Origin: Arenimonas oryziterrae DSM 21050 = YC6267
Lineage (GTDB): Bacteria > Pseudomonadota > Gammaproteobacteria > Xanthomonadales > Xanthomonadaceae
Length of the DNA: 64,000 bases
Assembly: GCF_000420545.1 (NCBI RefSeq)
Contig: NZ_ATVD01000003.1
Location: forward strand, 486,370-550,369
Reading direction: 5' to 3'
Of the stretch, positions 41,651-50,148 are shown piece by piece. Made by a program: the position numbers and the translations under genes. The notes beneath the pieces were generated by a model. It was not told the DNA's origin and searched no databases. It was given only the letters and a program-made list of their open reading frames with translations. The first letter of the stretch is position 1. Each line of letters opens with the position of its first letter.

Positions 41651-43255
41651 ATGGCCAGCGTGATGGCAACGCCCGTTTCCGGACTCACCTTGCACGGCCC
41701 GGCCCAGCCAGGTCAGGAAGACCTGCTTAGCCCGGCCGCGCTCGCCTTCCTGACCGAACTGCATCGCCGTTTCGAGCCGCTGCGCCAAGCGCGACTGGCC
41801 GCCCGGCGCGACCGTCAGGCGCGCTTCGATGCCGGCGAGCTGCCCGATTTCCGCGCCGACACCCGTGCGATCCGCGAGGGAGACTGGCAGGTCGCCGATT
41901 TGCCCAAGGCCCTGCTCGACCGCCGCGTCGAGATCACCGGTCCGGTCGAACCCAAGATGGTCATCAACGCGCTCAATTCCGGCGCGAAGGTGTATATGGC
42001 CGATTTCGAGGATTCGACGGCGCCGACCTGGGCGAACCTGCTGATCGGCCAGCGCGCGCTGCGCAAGGCGGTCGCCGGCACGCTCGACTGGATGGCGCCG
42101 GACGGCAGCAAACACTACGTGCTGAACCAGGAAAACCTGGCCGTGCTCATGGTGCGGCCGCGTGGCTGGCACCTCGACGAAAAGAATGTGCGCATCGACG
42201 GCGAGCGGCTGTCGGGCTCGCTGTTCGACCTGGGCCTGTTCGCGTTCCACAACGCGGCGGCGCTCGCGGCGAAGGATCTCGGTCCGTACTTCTATCTGCC
42301 CAAGCTGCAGAGCATGGAAGAAGCCGCGCTCTGGGACGAGGTGCTGGCCTTCATCGAAGTGCGCCTGGGTCTGCCGATCGGCCAGATGAAGGTCACCGTA
42401 CTCATCGAGACCCTGCCCGCCGCGTTCGAGATGGACGAAATCCTGCACGCGCTGCGGGGCCGCATGGCCGGTCTGAACTGCGGCCGCTGGGACTACATCT
42501 TTTCCTACCTCAAGACCTTCCGGAAGCACCGCGATCGTGTGTTGCCCGAACGCAGCCAGGTGACGATGACGCAGCCGTTCCTCAAGGCGTATTCGGAGCT
42601 GCTGATCAAGACCTGTCACCGTCGCGGTGCGCTCGCGATGGGCGGCATGGCCGCGCAGATTCCGATCAGCGGCGACGACGAGGCCAATGAAAAGGCGCTG
42701 GCACGCGTGCGCGCCGACAAGCTGCGCGAAGTCAGCGCCGGCCACGACGGCACCTGGGTCGCACATCCGGCGCTGATTCCGGTCGCGCAGGAAATCTTCG
42801 ACGCGCACATGCCGCGCGCCAACCAGCGTCACCTGCTGCGCGAGGACGTCGGTCCAAGCCGCGATGAACTGATCAAGCCCAGCGTCGGCACGATCACCCG
42901 CGCCGGTTTCGACAACAGTGTCGAGGTCTGCGTGCGCTACCTCGCTGCCTGGCTCGACGGCCAGGGCTGCGTGCCGATCCACTGGCTGATGGAAGACGCC
43001 GCGACCGCGGAAATTTCCCGCACGCAGCTGTGGCAGTGGCTGCACCACGGCGGCCTGCATCTGGACGACGGCACGCCCGTCGATTTCACCCTGTTCGATC
43101 GCGCGCTGCTCGCGCTGCCGTCCAAGCTGGCCGATCGCATGCGCCTGCCGGGCGGCTCGAAGATCAATGAAGCGATCGCGCTGCTCGACCAACTGACCGA
43201 CAGCAGTGAGCTGGCGGAATTTCTGACGCTGGCGGCTTACGAAAAGATCCAGTGA
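41651..43255 (+). CDS. aceB: Malate synthase A
   Basis: Condenses glyoxylate with acetyl-CoA to malate, the second step of the glyoxylate bypass; 534 residues, the usual malate synthase A length. Family motifs include [20 protein letters not shown]-like segments, [15 protein letters not shown], the catalytic-region [16 protein letters not shown], and the C-terminal [17 protein letters not shown]. The ATG at 41651 has only a weak upstream GGAG (41621-41624). First gene of aceB-aceA. Expression is probably governed by the divergent LysR protein. Confidence 0.97.
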
Positions 43256-43267
43256 TTCCGGCTGTTT

Positions 43268-43295
43268 GTCGCCAGCAAGCTGGCTCCCACCTACA
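43268..43295. repeat. Half copy of REP-like family A
   Basis: GTCGCCAGCAAGCTGGCTCC-type sequence matching the right arm of the palindrome at 4993-5048. The left arm is missing. It sits between aceB and aceA. Confidence 0.7.
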
Positions 43296-43325
43296 CACGA
43301 ATACCACGACCCCAAGGACACGACG

Positions 43326-44627
43326 ATGAGCACGACCCTCAAGACCGCCGAGCAACTGAAGACCGAATGGGCCAGCGATCCGCGCTGGGCCGGCATCGAG
43401 CGCGGTTACACCGCCGAAGAGGTCGTCCGCCTGCGCGGTACCGTCGCCATCGACCATTCGCTCGCGCGACTGGGCGCCGAGAAGCTGTGGAAATACCTCG
43501 GCGAAAAACCCTTCGTGAACGCGCTCGGCGCGCTGACTGGCAACCAGGCGATGCAGCAGGTCAAGGCCGGCCTGAACGCGATCTACCTCTCGGGCTGGCA
43601 GGTCGCCGCCGATGCGAACGTCGCCGGCGAGATGTATCCCGACCAGTCGCTGTATCCGGCGAACTCGGTGCCGCTGGTGGTCAAGCGCATCAACAACACG
43701 CTGCTGCGCGCCGACCAGCTGCACCATGCCGAAGGCAATGACTCGATCGACTGGCTGCAGCCGATCGTCGCCGATGCCGAGGCCGGTTTCGGCGGCGTGC
43801 TCAATGCGTTCGAACTCATGAAGTCGATGATCGAAGCCGGCGCGGCGGGTGTGCATTTCGAGGACCAGCTCGCCTCGGTCAAGAAGTGCGGCCACATGGG
43901 CGGCAAGGTGCTGGTGCCGACGCAGGAAGCGGTGCAGAAGCTGATCGCCGCGCGTCTGGCCGCCGATACGATGGGCGTGCCGACCCTGGTCGTCGCGCGC
44001 ACCGATGCCGAAGCCGCCGATCTGATCACCTCCGACATCGATCCGAACGACCAGCCCTTCATCACCGGCGAACGCACGGTGGAAGGCTTCTACAAGACCA
44101 AGCCGGGTATCGACCAGGCGATCTCGCGCGGCCTGGCGTACGCGCCGTACGCCGACCTCGTCTGGTGCGAGACCGGCAAGCCCGACCTGGCGTTCGCGCG
44201 CAAGTTCGCCGAAGCGATCCACGCGAAGTTCCCCGGCAAGATGCTCGCCTACAACTGCTCGCCGAGCTTCAACTGGAAGAAGAACCTCGACGACGCCACG
44301 ATCGCCTCGTTCCAGAAGGAACTGGCCGCGATGGGCTACAAGTTCCAGTTCATCACTCTGGCCGGCTTCCACTCGCTGAACTACTCGATGTTCAACCTCG
44401 CCTACGGCTATGCGCGCAATCAGATGAGCGCGTTCGTCGAGCTGCAGGAAGCGGAGTTCGCTGCGGCTGAACGCGGATTCACCGCGGTCAAGCACCAGCG
44501 CGAGGTTGGCACCGGCTATTTCGACTCGGTGACCCAGACCATCCAGGGCGGCACCAGCTCGACCACGGCGCTCAAGGGCTCGACCGAGGAAGAGCAGTTC
44601 CACGGCCAACCGGTCAAGGCGGCCTGA
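43326..44627 (+). CDS. aceA: Isocitrate lyase
   Basis: Splits isocitrate into glyoxylate and succinate, the entry step of the bypass; 433 residues, matching E. coli AceA. The catalytic cysteine lies in KKCGHMGGK. Other active-site segments are [33 protein letters not shown] and [11 protein letters not shown]. The ATG at 43326 follows AAGGACACGACG. Separated from aceB by 70 bases containing half of a dispersed palindrome; a strong terminator follows. aceK is not in this operon. Confidence 0.98.
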
Positions 44628-44726: not shown

Positions 44727-45737
44727 GTGGCCGATATCGATACGTATCCTTCCCGCGCGACGCTTGCCTCCCAGGACGCCCGTCTGCCTTCGGCGCTGAC
44801 CGAAGACGAAAAGCAGGTGCTCGCCAGCACCGCGATCAGTCGCGCCGTATTGCCGGGACAGGAGCTGTTCCAGCGCGGCGACAACGCGCAGAGCATGTAT
44901 CTCATCGATACCGGCGAAGTGCGCCTGAGTTTCGAGGACGGCCTGGCCGACAAGCTGCTCGGCCCGGGCCAGTATTTCGGCGAGCTGTCGGTATTCATCG
45001 GACATCACCAGCGCTTTGCGCGTGCCGTCGTGGAAACGGCTGGCGTGCTCTATGAAATCACCCAGGACGGTTTCGAGAAGCTGCTCGAACGCGAACCGGC
45101 CGTCGTCGCGCGCTTCATGCAGCGCAGCTTCGCGTATCTGGTCGCGGGCGAACATCAGCTGGTGCAGAGCCTGCGCCGGCGCAACGAAGACCTCATGCAG
45201 ACGCTCGACACCCTGCGCCAGACGCGCAGCGAGCTGTCGGTCGCGCAGCAGCTCGTGCGCAGCGACGACCTGACCGGCTTGTCGAATCGCCGCGGCCTGT
45301 ACCGTTACCTCGACGAAATCAGCCGGCATCCGCTGGTTGGCCACAAGCTGGCGTTGCTGCTGATCGACATCGACCACTTCAAGCGTATCAACGACCTCAG
45401 CGGTCACCTCGCCGGCGATTCCGCCCTGCGCGCGGTCGCCGAGGAAGTGCGTCGCCAGGCCAATGCCATGGATCTGCCCTGCCGGCTGGGTGGCGACGAG
45501 TTCGCCCTGGTCCTGCGCGTGGCCGACGAAGGCGACCTGGCCAACCGCGCCCTGGGCCTGATCGCCTCGGTTCGGGCCCTGCGCCTGCCCAGCCTGCGCG
45601 AGCACCGGGTCAGCGTCAGCGTCGGCGGCGCGTTCTGCGTTGATCCCGGCGGCTGGTCGTCCTGGTACAGCCGGGCCGATGCGGCGCTGTACGAGGCCAA
45701 GCGCAAGGGCGGCGACCATTGGCGGCTCGCCTCGTGA
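44727..45737 (+). CDS. Cyclic-nucleotide-binding domain fused to diguanylate cyclase
   Basis: Signalling enzyme of 336 residues making c-di-GMP from GTP. Residues about 22-140 form a CRP-type cyclic-nucleotide-binding domain; its phosphate-binding cassette keeps Gly85-Glu86-Leu87 and Arg96, but the usual Ser after Arg is Phe. A short coiled-coil linker follows (about 145-170). The GGDEF domain (about 172-335) has an intact active site GGDEF at 255-259. The inhibitory RxxD site is not complete (NAMD). The start is GTG at 44727, preceded by a -10-like TACACT at 44691. A nucleotide cyclase gene begins 92 bases downstream, so ligand supply to the sensor domain is possible. Confidence 0.92.
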   Translation: MADIDTYPSRATLASQDARLPSALTEDEKQVLASTAISRAVLPGQELFQRGDNAQSMYLIDTGEVRLSFEDGLADKLLGPGQYFGELSVFIGHHQRFARAVVETAGVLYEITQDGFEKLLEREPAVVARFMQRSFAYLVAGEHQLVQSLRRRNEDLMQTLDTLRQTRSELSVAQQLVRSDDLTGLSNRRGLYRYLDEISRHPLVGHKLALLLIDIDHFKRINDLSGHLAGDSALRAVAEEVRRQANAMDLPCRLGGDEFALVLRVADEGDLANRALGLIASVRALRLPSLREHRVSVSVGGAFCVDPGGWSSWYSRADAALYEAKRKGGDHWRLAS

Positions 45738-45829
45738 ACCCCGGCGCCCCCGGCGTTGCCGACGTTAGTGGCCGTGACCTCGCCGACGCCGCGTTGTAGG
45801 CCTTATTGAAGCCGACTGACCTGCAGGCC

Positions 45830-48463
45830 ATGGATACCCCAGCGAGCCTTCCCCCGCAAACGGCCGCTGCGTCGGTAACGCCGATGCTGCGCACCGTGTT
45901 GCTGGCCGACCTGGCCGACTCCACGCAGTTCGTCGAACGCCTCGGCGACGCGGCGGCGGCGGCACTGTGGCAGCGCCTGGACCTGCAGATCCGCGACTTG
46001 CTCGAATTCACCGGCGGCCGGCTCATCGACAAGGCCGACGGCCTGCTCGCGCTGTTCGAGCGACCGGTCCAGGCCGTGGATTTCGCCCTGCGCTACCAGC
46101 ACGCCCTGCACGACGCGGCGGCCGAGCTGAAGATGGAGCTCAAGGCGCGCATCGGCATCCATGTCGGCGACGTCATGACCTGGGCCAATTCGCCGCAGGC
46201 CGTCGCTGCGGGCGCCAAGCCGCTGGAAGTCGAAGGTCTGGCCAAACCGGTCGCGGCGCGCCTGATGAATCTCGCCACGCCCGGCCAGATCCTGATGTCG
46301 GGCATGGCCCAGACCCTGGCCTATCGCGCCCAGGCGGAACTGGGCAGCGAGCGCGCGGCGAAACTGCGCTGGCTGGTGCATGGCCGCTATCGTTTCAAGG
46401 GCGTGCCCGCGCCGATGATCGTGCACGAGGTCGGCGAACCCGGCTTCTCGCCCTTGCGTCTGCCGCCGTCGGGCCAGAAGTCCTGGCGCGAAGTGCCGCT
46501 CTGGCGCCGTCCGCCGATGCTCGCACTGGAAGTGCTGTGCGTGCTGGGCGTGGTCGGCGGCACCTTGTACACGACCCTGCGCAGTCCGCCGGCCCTGGCT
46601 TTCCACGAACGCGATTGGGTCGTGGTCGGCGACATGAACAATTTCACCGACGATCCGCGCCTGGACGAATCGCTGGAAACGGCGCTGCGCGTGAGCCTGG
46701 AACAGTCGCGCTACGTGAACCTGGTATCGGACATCAAGGTGCGCGACGCGCTCACGCGCATGGGTCGCGATCCGCAGACGACGATCGATCGCGGTATCGG
46801 CAGCGAGATCGCCCTGCGCGAAGGCGCGCGCGCCCTGCTGTTGCCGTCGATCACCGAAGTCGGTGGGCAGCTGCGCGTGAACCTCGAGGTCGTCGATCCC
46901 AATACCCAGGTCACGGTCTACGCCGAATCCGCCGAAGGCCACGGGCAGGACTCGGCGCTGGCCTCGATCGACGAGGTCAACAGCGACCTGCGCGAAAAAC
47001 TCGGCGAAGCGCTCGGCGACATCCGCGCCAACGGCAAGCCGCTGGCGCAGGTGACCACACCGGACATCGACGCGCTGCAGATGTATTCGCAGGCCAACGA
47101 AGCGGCGCGGCAGTCCAAGCTGCAGGAAGCCCGGCGTCTGCTCGATCTGGCCCTGGCCAAGGATCCGCAGTTCGCGCTCGCGTATTCGAGCCGCGCCAAA
47201 CTGCATCTGGTCAACAGCGACTACGCGGCGGCAAAAGCCGATCTGGCGATGGCGCAGCGGTACCGCGCGCGCCTGAGCAACCGCGAGTCCCTGATTCTCG
47301 ATGCGCGCGCCGCCGAGTCCGGCCCGCCTGAGTCGCTGCTCGAACACTGGAACACCTACGCGCGCATGTATCCGGACGCGTTCACCGCGTACCTGGAAGC
47401 GGCGAACGTGCAGGCGTATTCGCTGCAGCGCTACGAGGCGGCCCTGGCCAGCCTGCGTCCGGCGGTGAGCAGCCAGAATCCGCGGCAGGCGTCGACGATG
47501 TACCTCATCGGCAAGATGAATCTCGCGCTGGGCCGCTACAAGGACGCGCAGGTCGCGTTCGACAAGTACGAAAGCCTGGGCGGTCGCGGCTTTAATCGCG
47601 ATCATGCCGACCTGTTCGCGGCGCAGCGCCGCTATGTCGATGCCGACGCCGTGCTGCACAAGCAGGATGCAACCGGCCTGGCCGGCGCCGATCTGGAAAT
47701 GCGCCTGCCCGAAGCAACCTACCGGCTCGATCGTGGCGAGTGGCGCGCGGGTCTGGACGCGTTGGGCGCCTTGCAGAAACAAGCGCTGCAAAGTGCGCCG
47801 ATGCTGGCGCGCGTGTACGCCGGCGCGGAACTGGGCCTGCGGGTCGAAGAAGGCGCGAGCGGCGTCCTGCCCGACGTGCAGCGCTTCATCGAGACCGAAC
47901 GCCTGATCGCGCTGCAGACCGATCATCCCGAGCGCCAGCACGGCCTGTTCGCCGCCTTGTACGGCGCGTCCCTGGCCGCGCGCCTGGGTGATACCGCGAC
48001 GGCGCGGCGGGTGCTCACGCAACTGCGTCAGCCGGCGCTGGACAGCGGCTATCCCGCGCTCGCCAACATGACACGAGTCGTCGATGCCGAGCTCGCGCTA
48101 AGCGAACATCAGCCCGAACGCGCGATCGCGGCCCTGGTGCCGACGCTGGACGGTAGCGAACTCAATCTGGTGCACGCGGTGCTGCTGCGCGCCTATCTGC
48201 AGGCGAAGTCGCCCGCGGATGCCGCGCGCGAGGCCGACTGGCTGGCGGACCATCGCGGTCGTGCGTTCGTGGAGTGGGGCAGCGAATACCTGCTGCAGCC
48301 GGTCAATGTCGTGCAGAGCTCGCTGGCTCTGCTGTCGGCCGCGGAGATCGCGCAGGCGCAGGGCGATGTCGCACTGGCGAAAACCCGGCGCGCGCAGTTC
48401 CTGCGCGCGTGGCCGCAACCGCCCGGCTTCGTCGCCGGGCGGCTGGCCAAACTCAAGCCTTAG
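45830..48463 (+). CDS. Class III nucleotide cyclase-like protein with TPR region (peptide-modification cassette)
   Basis: An 877-residue protein. Residues 18-200 are a class III adenylate/guanylate cyclase domain: metal-binding Asp27 and Asp70 (in LADLADST and DKADGLLALF) and Arg144 are kept. The Asn of the usual VNxAAR motif is replaced by Pro140, so activity is uncertain. One membrane helix (230-250) separates it from a periplasmic part with a TolB/FlgO-like domain (about 255-400) and tetratricopeptide repeats (about 425-870). The layout fits the family named 'putative peptide modification system cyclase' (from memory, TIGR04510). The precursor peptide gene overlaps its 3' end by 11 bases on the other strand. 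The ATG at 45830 is preferred over TTG 45806. Confidence 0.85.
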   Translation: MDTPASLPPQTAAASVTPMLRTVLLADLADSTQFVERLGDAAAAALWQRLDLQIRDLLEFTGGRLIDKADGLLALFERPVQAVDFALRYQHALHDAAAELKMELKARIGIHVGDVMTWANSPQAVAAGAKPLEVEGLAKPVAARLMNLATPGQILMSGMAQTLAYRAQAELGSERAAKLRWLVHGRYRFKGVPAPMIVHEVGEPGFSPLRLPPSGQKSWREVPLWRRPPMLALEVLCVLGVVGGTLYTTLRSPPALAFHERDWVVVGDMNNFTDDPRLDESLETALRVSLEQSRYVNLVSDIKVRDALTRMGRDPQTTIDRGIGSEIALREGARALLLPSITEVGGQLRVNLEVVDPNTQVTVYAESAEGHGQDSALASIDEVNSDLREKLGEALGDIRANGKPLAQVTTPDIDALQMYSQANEAARQSKLQEARRLLDLALAKDPQFALAYSSRAKLHLVNSDYAAAKADLAMAQRYRARLSNRESLILDARAAESGPPESLLEHWNTYARMYPDAFTAYLEAANVQAYSLQRYEAALASLRPAVSSQNPRQASTMYLIGKMNLALGRYKDAQVAFDKYESLGGRGFNRDHADLFAAQRRYVDADAVLHKQDATGLAGADLEMRLPEATYRLDRGEWRAGLDALGALQKQALQSAPMLARVYAGAELGLRVEEGASGVLPDVQRFIETERLIALQTDHPERQHGLFAALYGASLAARLGDTATARRVLTQLRQPALDSGYPALANMTRVVDAELALSEHQPERAIAALVPTLDGSELNLVHAVLLRAYLQAKSPADAAREADWLADHRGRAFVEWGSEYLLQPVNVVQSSLALLSAAEIAQAQGDVALAKTRRAQFLRAWPQPPGFVAGRLAKLKP

Positions 48464-48755
48464 ATTGCGTCGCGCACAGGTCGAACACGGCCTGCGGTTT
48501 CGGCGGAGCGACCAGCGCGGCGTGGATGCGCGAGCGGCCCTGCTTGATCGTTTCCTTGTCGGCCAGGCCATGCAGGTTGTAGCAGCACAGGACCGGGTCG
48601 GCGCCGCGGACATCGCGGTCTTCTTCCGGCGTGACGTGGCCGACCTGACGCAAGGCCGCACGCGGATTCTTCTGGAACAGCGCTCGGAAATCGTCGTCGC
48701 TCGACAACTTGTCGAGCAAGGCGTCGACGACTTTGGGCGAGAGGTTGTTGCTCAT
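48453..48755 (-). CDS. Putative modified-peptide (RiPP) precursor
   Basis: A 100-residue peptide. Residues 5-38 form an amphipathic leader-like helix (LSPKVVDALLDKLSSDDDF, then RALFQKNPRAALRQV), similar to nitrile-hydratase/Nif11-type leaders. The C-terminal part has Cys57-Cys58 and Cys94, with LADKETIKQGRSRIHAAL between. This fits the xanthomonad modified-peptide family found with a cyclase and a SagB-like dehydrogenase (from memory, TIGR04509). The ATG at 48755 has AGGGGA just upstream; the longer frame adds unrelated residues. It is antisense to both neighbours and overlaps the cyclase 3' end by 11 bases. The modification and mature product are unknown. Confidence 0.82.
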   Translation of the reverse strand: MSNNLSPKVVDALLDKLSSDDDFRALFQKNPRAALRQVGHVTPEEDRDVRGADPVLCCYNLHGLADKETIKQGRSRIHAALVAPPKPQAVFDLCATQSKA

Positions 48756-48861
48756 CGGGGTCCCCTGTAGTGATGGATGCAGCCCGCCGAGCATAGCGCC
48801 GCGACCGGGAAGCACCAAACGGCGAAGGATGGGCCGGTTGGCCATCGGCACAGCGCGCCCC

Positions 48862-48867
48862 GATAAT
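48862..48867 (+). promoter_or_regulatory. Putative -10 element of the SagB-like dehydrogenase gene
   Basis: GATAAT 39 bases before the ATG at 48907, in the divergent gap between the precursor peptide gene and the dehydrogenase gene. The -35 is not clear. Confidence 0.4.
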
Positions 48868-48906
48868 GCGACCGACACGCATGGCGTGCGGCCTGCCGGG
48901 AACCTC

Positions 48907-50148
48907 ATGCTCATCCATCGCTGTCCCTATCTGTTCGTCGAGCGTCGTGAGGACGTCGCCTTCTCGCTGGACGACCTGCTCGGCGGCGGCAGCGGTGCGG
49001 TTACGCGCGGCCGCTGGGTCGCGCTGGCCGCGCCGCTGGCCGAGGAGCACGAACTCGACGGCGACGATCTGCGCCTGCTCGAAGCGGTCGGCTGCGAGGA
49101 TCCGGTGCCGCGCGCCGAGCTCGAACGCGGGCATGCGCCCGAACGCATCGACCGCCTGCTCGCGGCCGGCCTGTTGCTGGGCGAGTCGGTGCCGCATCAG
49201 CGTCTGCGCGCGCGTGCGCGGCAGATGCAGGCTGCCGGCTGGTGGCCGCTCGCGGCCGCGATGCAGGCCTTCGGTCGCTGGCGCGGCGTCGATGTGCAGG
49301 AACATCCGCGCGAAACAATTGCCGACATGGTCGCTGCGCACGGCCCGGCCCCCGCCGAAACCCATGCGCGAGGCGATGTCGCGCACCGGCTGAGCTTGCC
49401 GCCACCGCGCAAGACGGCGCTCGACGATTTGCTCGCACGACGCGTGACATGCCGGAATTTCGCGGCGGACGGCGTGGTTCCGCTGGCGCAGCTCGCCGAT
49501 CTGCTGCACCGGGTGTTCGGTGAGCAAGGCCGCCAGGAGCTCGCTCCGGGAGCGGTCGCGCTGAAGAAAAATAGTCCGTCTGGCGGCGGCCTGCATCCGG
49601 TCGAAGCGTATGTGCTGGCGCAGCGCGTCGAGGGGCTCGCGCCCGGGCTTTATCACTATCACGCGGTCGCGCATGCGTTGGAGCCCCTGTCTGCGGGGGA
49701 CGTGGGGCCTGGCGACGGTGCGATGGCTGCGACGGATCCGAGTGGGTTGGATGCGGCGGATCCAAGTGGGTGGGACGCGACTCCTCCCGGCGGGTGGGCG
49801 AGCCTTGCCCTTCGGTTGGTGGCCGGCCAGACTTGGTTCGCCAACGCGCCGGTGCTGGTGCTGATGACGGCGCGCTTCGATCGCAATTTCTGGAAGTACC
49901 AGCGCCATGCCAAGGCCTGGAAAGTCGTGCAGCTCGACGCCGGCCATTTGTCGCAGAACCTCTACCTGACCGCGACCGAGATGGGCCACGGTGCCTTCGT
50001 CACCGGCGCGATCAATGACGAAGTCATCGAGCAGGTGCTGGGGCTGGATGGCGTGACCGAGGGTCCGGTGCTTATCAATGGCTTCGGCCCGCGCGCCGAG
50101 CAGATCGTCGTGGGCGAACTCGATCCCAACGGTCGTCTCGACGCTTGA
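48907..50148 (+). CDS. SagB-type FMN dehydrogenase, putative peptide maturation enzyme
   Basis: A 413-residue protein. About 160 N-terminal residues are specific to this family. The nitroreductase/SagB domain (about 165-410) has RRVTCRNFAADGVVPLAQLA, the FMN-binding KKNSPSGGGLHPVEAY, GLAPGLYHYHAVAHAL and the closing VLINGFGPR. SagB-type enzymes oxidise azolines to azoles in peptide natural products. It fits the family 'putative peptide maturation dehydrogenase' (from memory, TIGR04511) that accompanies the cyclase and precursor found here. No cyclodehydratase (YcaO) gene is nearby. Three tandem 8-residue repeats interrupt the domain at about 275-298. The ATG at 48907 follows CGGGAA. Confidence 0.85.
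   Translation: MLIHRCPYLFVERREDVAFSLDDLLGGGSGAVTRGRWVALAAPLAEEHELDGDDLRLLEAVGCEDPVPRAELERGHAPERIDRLLAAGLLLGESVPHQRLRARARQMQAAGWWPLAAAMQAFGRWRGVDVQEHPRETIADMVAAHGPAPAETHARGDVAHRLSLPPPRKTALDDLLARRVTCRNFAADGVVPLAQLADLLHRVFGEQGRQELAPGAVALKKNSPSGGGLHPVEAYVLAQRVEGLAPGLYHYHAVAHALEPLSAGDVGPGDGAMAATDPSGLDAADPSGWDATPPGGWASLALRLVAGQTWFANAPVLVLMTARFDRNFWKYQRHAKAWKVVQLDAGHLSQNLYLTATEMGHGAFVTGAINDEVIEQVLGLDGVTEGPVLINGFGPRAEQIVVGELDPNGRLDA
49729..49800 (+). repeat. Three tandem 24-base units inside the dehydrogenase gene
   Basis: In-frame units encode ATDPSGLD, AADPSGWD and ATPPGGWA. Each has the base pattern GCGxCGGATCCxAGTGGG or a diverged form. They make an extended Gly/Pro/Asp-rich loop in the SagB-like domain. 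Confidence 0.8.

Follow-up and report, generated by a model that had tools for sequence, protein, structure and literature searches.

A polymorphic cyclase, peptide and dehydrogenase cassette of Arenimonas oryziterrae and its relatives as a candidate pherotype-like signalling unit

A 64,000-nucleotide stretch of the Arenimonas oryziterrae DSM 21050 genome (contig NZ_ATVD01000003.1; hereafter the window) carries a four-gene unit at positions 44727–50148, which encodes a cNMP-binding GGDEF protein, a membrane class III nucleotide cyclase, a short peptide precursor and an FMN dehydrogenase. We read this unit, with a probability of about 0.62, as a polymorphic, pherotype-like peptide signalling unit in which the cyclase acts as receptor for the bacterium's own peptide. 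The cassette itself and its polymorphism are held with high confidence; its gene content, geometry, allelic types, their exchange between genomes and the co-variation of its parts are all computed from the window and its relatives.

The unit opens with a gene (44727..45737, plus strand) whose product combines cNMP-binding (Pfam cNMP_binding, 61.6 bits) and GGDEF (115 bits) domains and is a relative of XC_0249, a cGMP effector and diguanylate cyclase. It is followed by the gene for the cyclase with its C-terminal tetratricopeptide repeat (TPR)-like region (45830..48463, plus strand; TIGR04510, 1115 bits against a cut-off of 400), for which we take ATG 45830 as start, with an alternative TTG upstream at 45806. 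The 100-residue precursor is encoded on the minus strand (48453..48755; TIGR04509, 103 bits, cut-off 34), tail to tail with the cyclase gene and overlapping it by 11 nt at the 3′ ends; AGGGGA lies 5 nt upstream of its ATG. A divergent intergenic region (48756..48906), where one sigma-70-like site, a match to the consensus, faces the dehydrogenase, separates the peptide start from that of the SagB/McbC/ThcOx-type FMN dehydrogenase (48907..50148, plus strand; TIGR04511, 562 bits, cut-off 240). A preliminary description of this DNA had named the three families as a cassette, which the profile searches bear out for three adjacent genes; the cNMP-GGDEF gene, which it left out, is part of the unit.

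The cyclase, counted from ATG 45830 and modelled with AlphaFold (pLDDT 88), begins with a conserved cyclase domain (residues 20–200; 45887..46429, plus strand as for the following parts), and a predicted transmembrane helix comes next (residues 228–250; 46511..46579; helix 226–248 in the model, after an Arg-rich stretch suggestive of the topology). An alpha/beta domain of intermediate conservation, which we take to be TolB-N-like (residues 256–405; 46595..47044), shows alpha/beta elements in the model. The remainder (residues 406–877; 47045..48460) is a helical solenoid in the model, with TPR matches below the Pfam cut-offs and a collapse of identity among relatives; this hypervariable region, predicted to be periplasmic, is the proposed peptide receptor.

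In close pairs of relatives, the cyclase domain, the GGDEF protein and the isocitrate lyase encoded upstream are 91–99% identical, while identity can fall to 22–35% in the TPR region, 28–58% in the dehydrogenase and 17–40% in the peptide. For example, the Arenimonas loci L142 and L172 show identities of 0.99 in aceA, 0.97 in GGDEF, 0.99 in the cyclase domain and 0.75 in TolB-N, against 0.27 in TPR, 0.44 in the dehydrogenase and 0.28 in the peptide. This pattern of conserved output and variable sensor recurs in Arenimonas, in Pseudoxanthomonas and in tandem copies of one genome; other pairs (L100/L101, L110/L112, L199/L200) are alike throughout.

Discrete types emerge from 20 Xanthomonas genomes, 18 of which hold the cassette and give 153 pairs. 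TPR identity is 0.24–0.37 in 126 pairs and 0.63–1.00 in 27, with none at 0.40–0.60; since types were drawn at TPR identity above 0.6, the result is the gap itself and not the grouping. Six types, A to F, comprise 3, 6, 3, 4, 1 and 1 loci. Across all pairs of these 18 loci, the cyclase domain stays at 91–99% and GGDEF at 89–100% identity. The last 60 residues of the peptide, by comparison, reach at least 0.53 identity inside a type (median 0.92) and no more than 0.43 across types (median 0.30), the dehydrogenase 0.66–1.00 within and 0.30–0.60 between, and TolB-N takes intermediate values between types (0.50–0.77). Periplasmic TPR proteins of the same 18 genomes, used as controls, are conserved (BamD 0.87–1.00, CpoB 0.84–1.00).

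The types are exchanged between species and lie as discrete groups scattered over the tree. On a tree of GGDEF plus cyclase domain, the six types need 10 changes; shuffled types need 10.8 on average, and 62 of 200 shuffles require no more than the observed number. Types B, C and D each occur on both sides of the sole starred split, and the exact number of changes is soft. Tests across genera covered 35 of the 80 loci by a quick method, with clades picked after the identities had been seen. The cyclase-domain tree joins six Xanthomonas loci (support 99), a clade rejected by the TPR (p-AU 6.6e-11) and dehydrogenase (4.9e-8) alignments. Two loci from other genera, L114 and L115, are the partners of L109 in the TPR tree (100) and, along with L132, in the dehydrogenase tree (100); in the TPR tree L132 takes a different position, next to another long branch, and the joint clade is not rejected there (p 0.075). 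The TPR and dehydrogenase trees both unite L092 with L096, which belongs to another genus (99 and 91). The Arenimonas pair L142 and L172, joined in the cyclase-domain tree with support 96, is likewise rejected by TPR (0.0023) and dehydrogenase (0.0003).

At the DNA level, sharp islands are present in all five pairs inspected. L092 and L109 match at 90.5% identity for 9.1 kb until a point within the cyclase gene; over TPR, peptide and dehydrogenase they yield no alignment longer than 150 bases, and further on they return to 80–90% identity. Between L203 and L210, synonymous divergence is 0.09–0.21 in aceA, GGDEF and the cyclase domain and 0.165 in the dehydrogenase, reaches 0.93 in TolB-N and ranges from 1.55 to saturation over the four quarters of the TPR region. 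Their peptides agree throughout the first 45 residues and diverge in the core, so an exchange can stop within the precursor gene, at its leader. Because the tail-to-tail layout brings the core of the peptide up against the end of the sensor, both can move in a single event, and such joint transfer may be why the orientation is invariant: in the window, 46 stretches and 80 named loci, with some genomes present twice, every one of the 151 peptide matches at cyclase-bearing loci runs opposite to the cyclase gene, and the dehydrogenase is inverted in 5 of 120. Not all divergence stems from exchange, as the last TPR quarter of L160 and L162 (dN 0.255, dS 0.376) shows when set beside their cyclase domain (dN 0.009, dS 0.208).

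Sensor and peptide core also co-vary. Over 73 single-peptide loci and 2000 permutations, TPR similarity follows core similarity once the similarity of cyclase domain, aceA and GGDEF is taken out (r 0.315, 0/2000), and still does when TolB-N, dehydrogenase and leader are controlled for as well (r 0.156, 0/2000). TolB-N does not co-vary with the core (r −0.126, 1974/2000); the dehydrogenase correlates with the leader (0.189, 5/2000) and with the core (0.174, 0/2000). Tandem cyclases repeat the contrast within single genomes: the two of L208 share 0.99 of the cyclase domain, 1.00 of TolB-N and 0.28 of TPR and stand with two different peptides and one dehydrogenase, those of L174 and L205 share 0.85–0.86 of the domain and 0.32–0.34 of TPR, and at L204, where the contig end cuts the first cyclase, TolB-N identity is 0.94 and TPR identity 0.34.

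The cassette is old and occurs as a set. Among 200 genomes of the order, with each family counted over its curated cut-off, TIGR04509, TIGR04510 and TIGR04511 were each found in 43, and the three genome lists, transcribed by hand and then compared, are identical, so their co-occurrence is not chance; a class-wide survey found the peptide family in 5 of 369 genomes, all five within the order. Relatives that lose the precursor and keep the rest, which the preliminary description had named as a point that would speak against it, were not the rule found: beyond the shared 43 genomes, 114 of the 115 loci with at least 2 kb 3′ of the last cyclase (window included, some genomes twice) have a peptide match and 112 a dehydrogenase match, and a part is missing in three, namely L127, L186 (probably the same record as L127) and L131. 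Upstream, among 107 loci whose sequence extends 5 kb or more before the cyclase, a full-length GGDEF match is present in 99, isocitrate lyase in 87 and malate synthase in 83. A unit so long kept at one chromosomal place looks like regulation and not like a roaming antibiotic cluster.

A characterized pathway with similar parts is that of Xanthomonas campestris. As described in the available text of PMC3770947, XC_0250, in which a class III cyclase is fused with a TPR region, produces cGMP and is inactive on ATP; the linked cNMP-GGDEF protein XC_0249 binds cGMP with a KD of 0.29 μM and then raises c-di-GMP synthesis, and mutation of either gene lowers biofilm and virulence. The adjacency is the same, with the cNMP-GGDEF gene directly upstream of the cyclase-TPR gene. 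The peptide and dehydrogenase genes that accompany the cassette here are not mentioned in the available text of PMC3770947, in which the words peptide, dehydrogenase and operon have no match and no input signal or polymorphism is reported. The cassette cyclase is a probable orthologue of guanylate cyclase XC_0250; we provisionally assign the latter to TIGR04510 because it has the same architecture and the same neighbour and because 18 of 20 Xanthomonas genomes each hold exactly one TIGR04510 protein over the cut-off. By analogy with PMC3770947, as far as its text was available, the cyclic nucleotide of the cassette is probably cGMP. The residue letters given there fit the X. vasicola protein L215 at five of six places and no other locus tried (five more loci, then 0 of 18 Xanthomonas loci), because N-termini differ in length.

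For the effector, PDB entry 5h5o, the cNMP domain of a diguanylate cyclase, matches a Xanthomonas orthologue of the upstream gene (L185) with 164 bits, and our guess is that it is XC_0249; the structure entry named in the available text of PMC3770947, 4KG1, is not among the matches listed. At the guanine contacts Asn145-Glu146 (XC_0249 numbering), the Glu is kept in 112 of 112 loci, and the Asn position holds N in 56, S in 37, G in 18 and R in 1, the window having Gly-Glu; the nucleotide preference of the cNMP domain may thus vary between loci.

The catalytic Asp pair, D27 and D70, is present in the window cyclase, with Asp in 44/48 and 45/48 aligned cyclases. Pro140 stands at the place usually held by Asn and is Pro in 43 of 48 aligned rows. 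A dead cyclase was considered on this ground and set aside: in Rv1900c, too, the aligned position holds a residue other than Asn, and XC_0250 has activity (PMC3770947, available text). That text names D41 and D71; by L215 numbering, D71 corresponds to window D70, and D41 does not correspond to D27. It also puts the transition-state positions at Leu157 and Ala161, and alignment with Rv1900c sets window Arg144 (Arg in 44/48) opposite an Arg. Comparison with solved folds gave match lists filled by the cyclase domain. Within types, the helices at 636–653, 678–694 and 720–736 change fast (0.26–0.33, with 0.13–0.19 in the next helices). A binding groove formed by alternate helices was not retained, as the two sets differ little over all helices under simple alternation (0.189 vs 0.169), and we claim no groove. 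Paralogues with TolB-N-like and TPR parts and no cyclase domain adjoin the cassette at L103:12240-14357 and L159:15276-17405.

The precursor consists of a leader of about residues 1–40 and a variable region. NHLP-type leaders are usual for natural products; the leader resembles those of NHLP/Nif11 peptides and stays below both cut-offs (TIGR03793, 20.3 vs 50.9; NF038399, 30.7 vs 40). The CC...C motif of the window peptide had been put forward as the modified core. As a general feature this finds no support, since Cys is not kept across the family: 139 distinct peptides comprise 13 without Cys, 40 with one, 71 with two, 14 with three and 1 with four. The dehydrogenase also passes the SagB model TIGR03605 (118 bits, cut-off 78). 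Its fold is nearest ThcOx, McbC and BmdC, its N-terminal part (residues 1–110) aligns with ThcOx and BmdC, and a Lys-Tyr pair, aligned with FWKY of ThcOx, is invariant in 44 of 44 dehydrogenases. Unlike those enzymes, it has no YcaO partner in the genome and serves a substrate family without conserved Cys; the absence of YcaO noted earlier at the locus extends to the whole genome and to 41 of the 43 cassette genomes. Azole formation is therefore unlikely, with neither a YcaO in this genome nor a conserved Cys, and a thiazole core was dropped as a general feature, given the varying Cys count and the absence of YcaO here. An insertion with a repeated DPSG pattern at about residues 264–292 (49696–49782), of low model confidence, is missing from about 41 of 44 aligned sequences.

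These elements suggest the following mechanism. The dehydrogenase would bind the leader of the 100-residue precursor through its N-terminal domain and oxidize the core, and the matured core would leave the cytoplasm by an unlinked route to be read by the TPR superhelix that the adjacent membrane cyclase is predicted to expose to the periplasm. The cyclase would then alter its cGMP output, which the upstream cNMP-GGDEF protein would convert into c-di-GMP. The dehydrogenase-matured peptide is thus the likely ligand of the receptor cyclase; its role as ligand, its export, its chemistry and the carry-over of the X. campestris results are what we infer.

Agr of Staphylococcus has the same arrangement as ComQXPA of Bacillus. 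In the latter, precursor, modifying enzyme and receptor are adjacent and polymorphic, the output is conserved and the groups are discrete (PMC4408185 and PMC4008528, available text), as in the cassette. The receptor of both systems is a histidine kinase, whereas here it would be a guanylate cyclase, in a Gram-negative bacterium and with an FMN dehydrogenase as the enzyme; the cassette may therefore be said to work like these pherotype systems and not to belong to them, its candidate receptor being a class III cyclase. TPR superhelices serve as peptide receptors in the RRNPP family (Rap, PlcR and PrgX), where they are cytoplasmic and bind imported peptides; the present one is similar and predicted to be periplasmic. 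Pycsar anti-phage systems use TIR or TM effectors. The cNMP domain here is instead fused to GGDEF, and PADLOC gave only weak Pycsar matches, for the cNMP-binding domain and the class III cyclase, so that Pycsar was rejected. No description of a peptide signal at this locus was found in literature titles or abstracts, with few subscription papers covered.

Four other explanations were weighed. The peptide could be a modified bacteriocin-like weapon, with the TPR half as specific immunity or danger sensor and toxin and sensor diversifying jointly. The same allelic linkage would then be expected, the NHLP-like leader would suit a natural product, and arrays of several peptides per cyclase occur at L134 (five), L119 (two) and L219 (two). 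No conserved adjoining exporter or separate immunity gene was seen by eye and by library comparison of some of the neighbours, however; the unit mostly stays put beside GGDEF and isocitrate lyase, and its sole known output in a relative is regulation of cGMP/c-di-GMP, biofilm and virulence (PMC3770947, available text). We regard a weapon as unlikely. Slightly less likely still, the TPR half might sense an environmental, host or phage-derived ligand, with peptide and dehydrogenase dragged along by linkage, as the segments are contiguous and one recombination event moves all of them. Such a ligand would leave unexplained why the three families share the same 43 genomes, why tandem cyclases at L174, L204, L205 and L208 come with different peptide genes and one shared dehydrogenase, and why identical leaders precede changed cores.

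More doubtful is a peptide that acts inside the cell as a modified regulator or redox cofactor, with its production under cyclase control as the preliminary description proposed. The missing export route would fit it, and the divergent transcription of peptide and dehydrogenase could allow co-regulation, a weak point in its favour; yet a cytoplasmic regulator needs no hypervariable periplasmic receptor changing in lock-step. The cyclic-nucleotide link drawn there is right, the nucleotide probably being cGMP (PMC3770947, available text), and its sense is probably the reverse, the evolutionary pattern suggesting that the peptide is the input read by the cyclase. An azole-forming (TOMM/SagB) pathway of the usual chemistry, with an antibiotic product unrelated to the cyclase, is very improbable, since the Lys-Tyr pair and the ThcOx, McbC and BmdC fold that favour it meet an absent YcaO and peptides without Cys.

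Several points weigh against the receptor reading of the cyclase. No export route was found: Peptidase_C39 (PF03412) has no match in this genome, no signal-peptide program was run, and no exporter gene conserved near the cassette was recognised. A C39 exporter as universal partner was discarded, having a match in 26 of the 43 cassette genomes and none in 17. That the TPR region lies on the periplasmic side is a prediction from a predicted helix and from charge. The isolated XC_0250 cyclase domain restored biofilm (PMC3770947, available text), which leaves regulation by the sensor a conjecture, and XC_0250 itself is not identified among the compared loci. GGDEF has no match in 8 of 107 loci. 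At L134 (G091) the catalytic block is degenerate and no GGDEF match lies upstream, while the dehydrogenase is intact and the five peptide genes are nearly identical; it seems that output and effector were lost together there. Several peptides per cyclase occur in the arrays already named, and L207 has three cyclases, two peptides and one dehydrogenase. TPR similarity correlates weakly with the leader too (0.130, 22/2000), and linkage can make adjacent segments co-vary, producing part of the correlation. Finally, the allele evidence comes from relatives and not from this strain. The export gap, the predicted side of the TPR region, the isolated-domain result, L134, the two peptides per cyclase and the origin of the allele evidence are why the signalling mechanism is held at the probability given above.

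Neighbouring genes complete the picture of the locus. Malate synthase and isocitrate lyase, the usual upstream neighbours, lie at 41651..44627 on the plus strand in the window (TIGR01344, 692 bits; NF011645, 815 bits), and the signalling unit adjoins glyoxylate-shunt genes in most relatives. Downstream, a YifB-type ATPase gene follows the dehydrogenase; no conserved fourth gene was seen by eye in the 40 largest clusters, the widest, YifB, occurring in 16 of 47 loci.

We consider it somewhat better than an even chance that the cyclase is a receptor for a self-made, dehydrogenase-modified peptide and the cassette a pherotype system of Gram-negative bacteria. Sensor, core and modifying enzyme would then pass as one block from one species or genus to another and set 'dialects', comparable to those of Gram-positive peptide signals, by which cGMP and in turn c-di-GMP govern biofilm and host-associated life in Xanthomonas, Lysobacter, Pseudoxanthomonas, Arenimonas and their kin. 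We know of no guanylate cyclase among the receptor classes for bacterial peptide pheromones. The three family models, now carrying names such as 'putative', would gain a function, and the dehydrogenase would point to SagB-like chemistry working without YcaO. If true, the reading would provide the Xanthomonas cGMP pathway with the input it lacks so far and would add peptide-based, type-specific signalling to Gram-negative bacteria.

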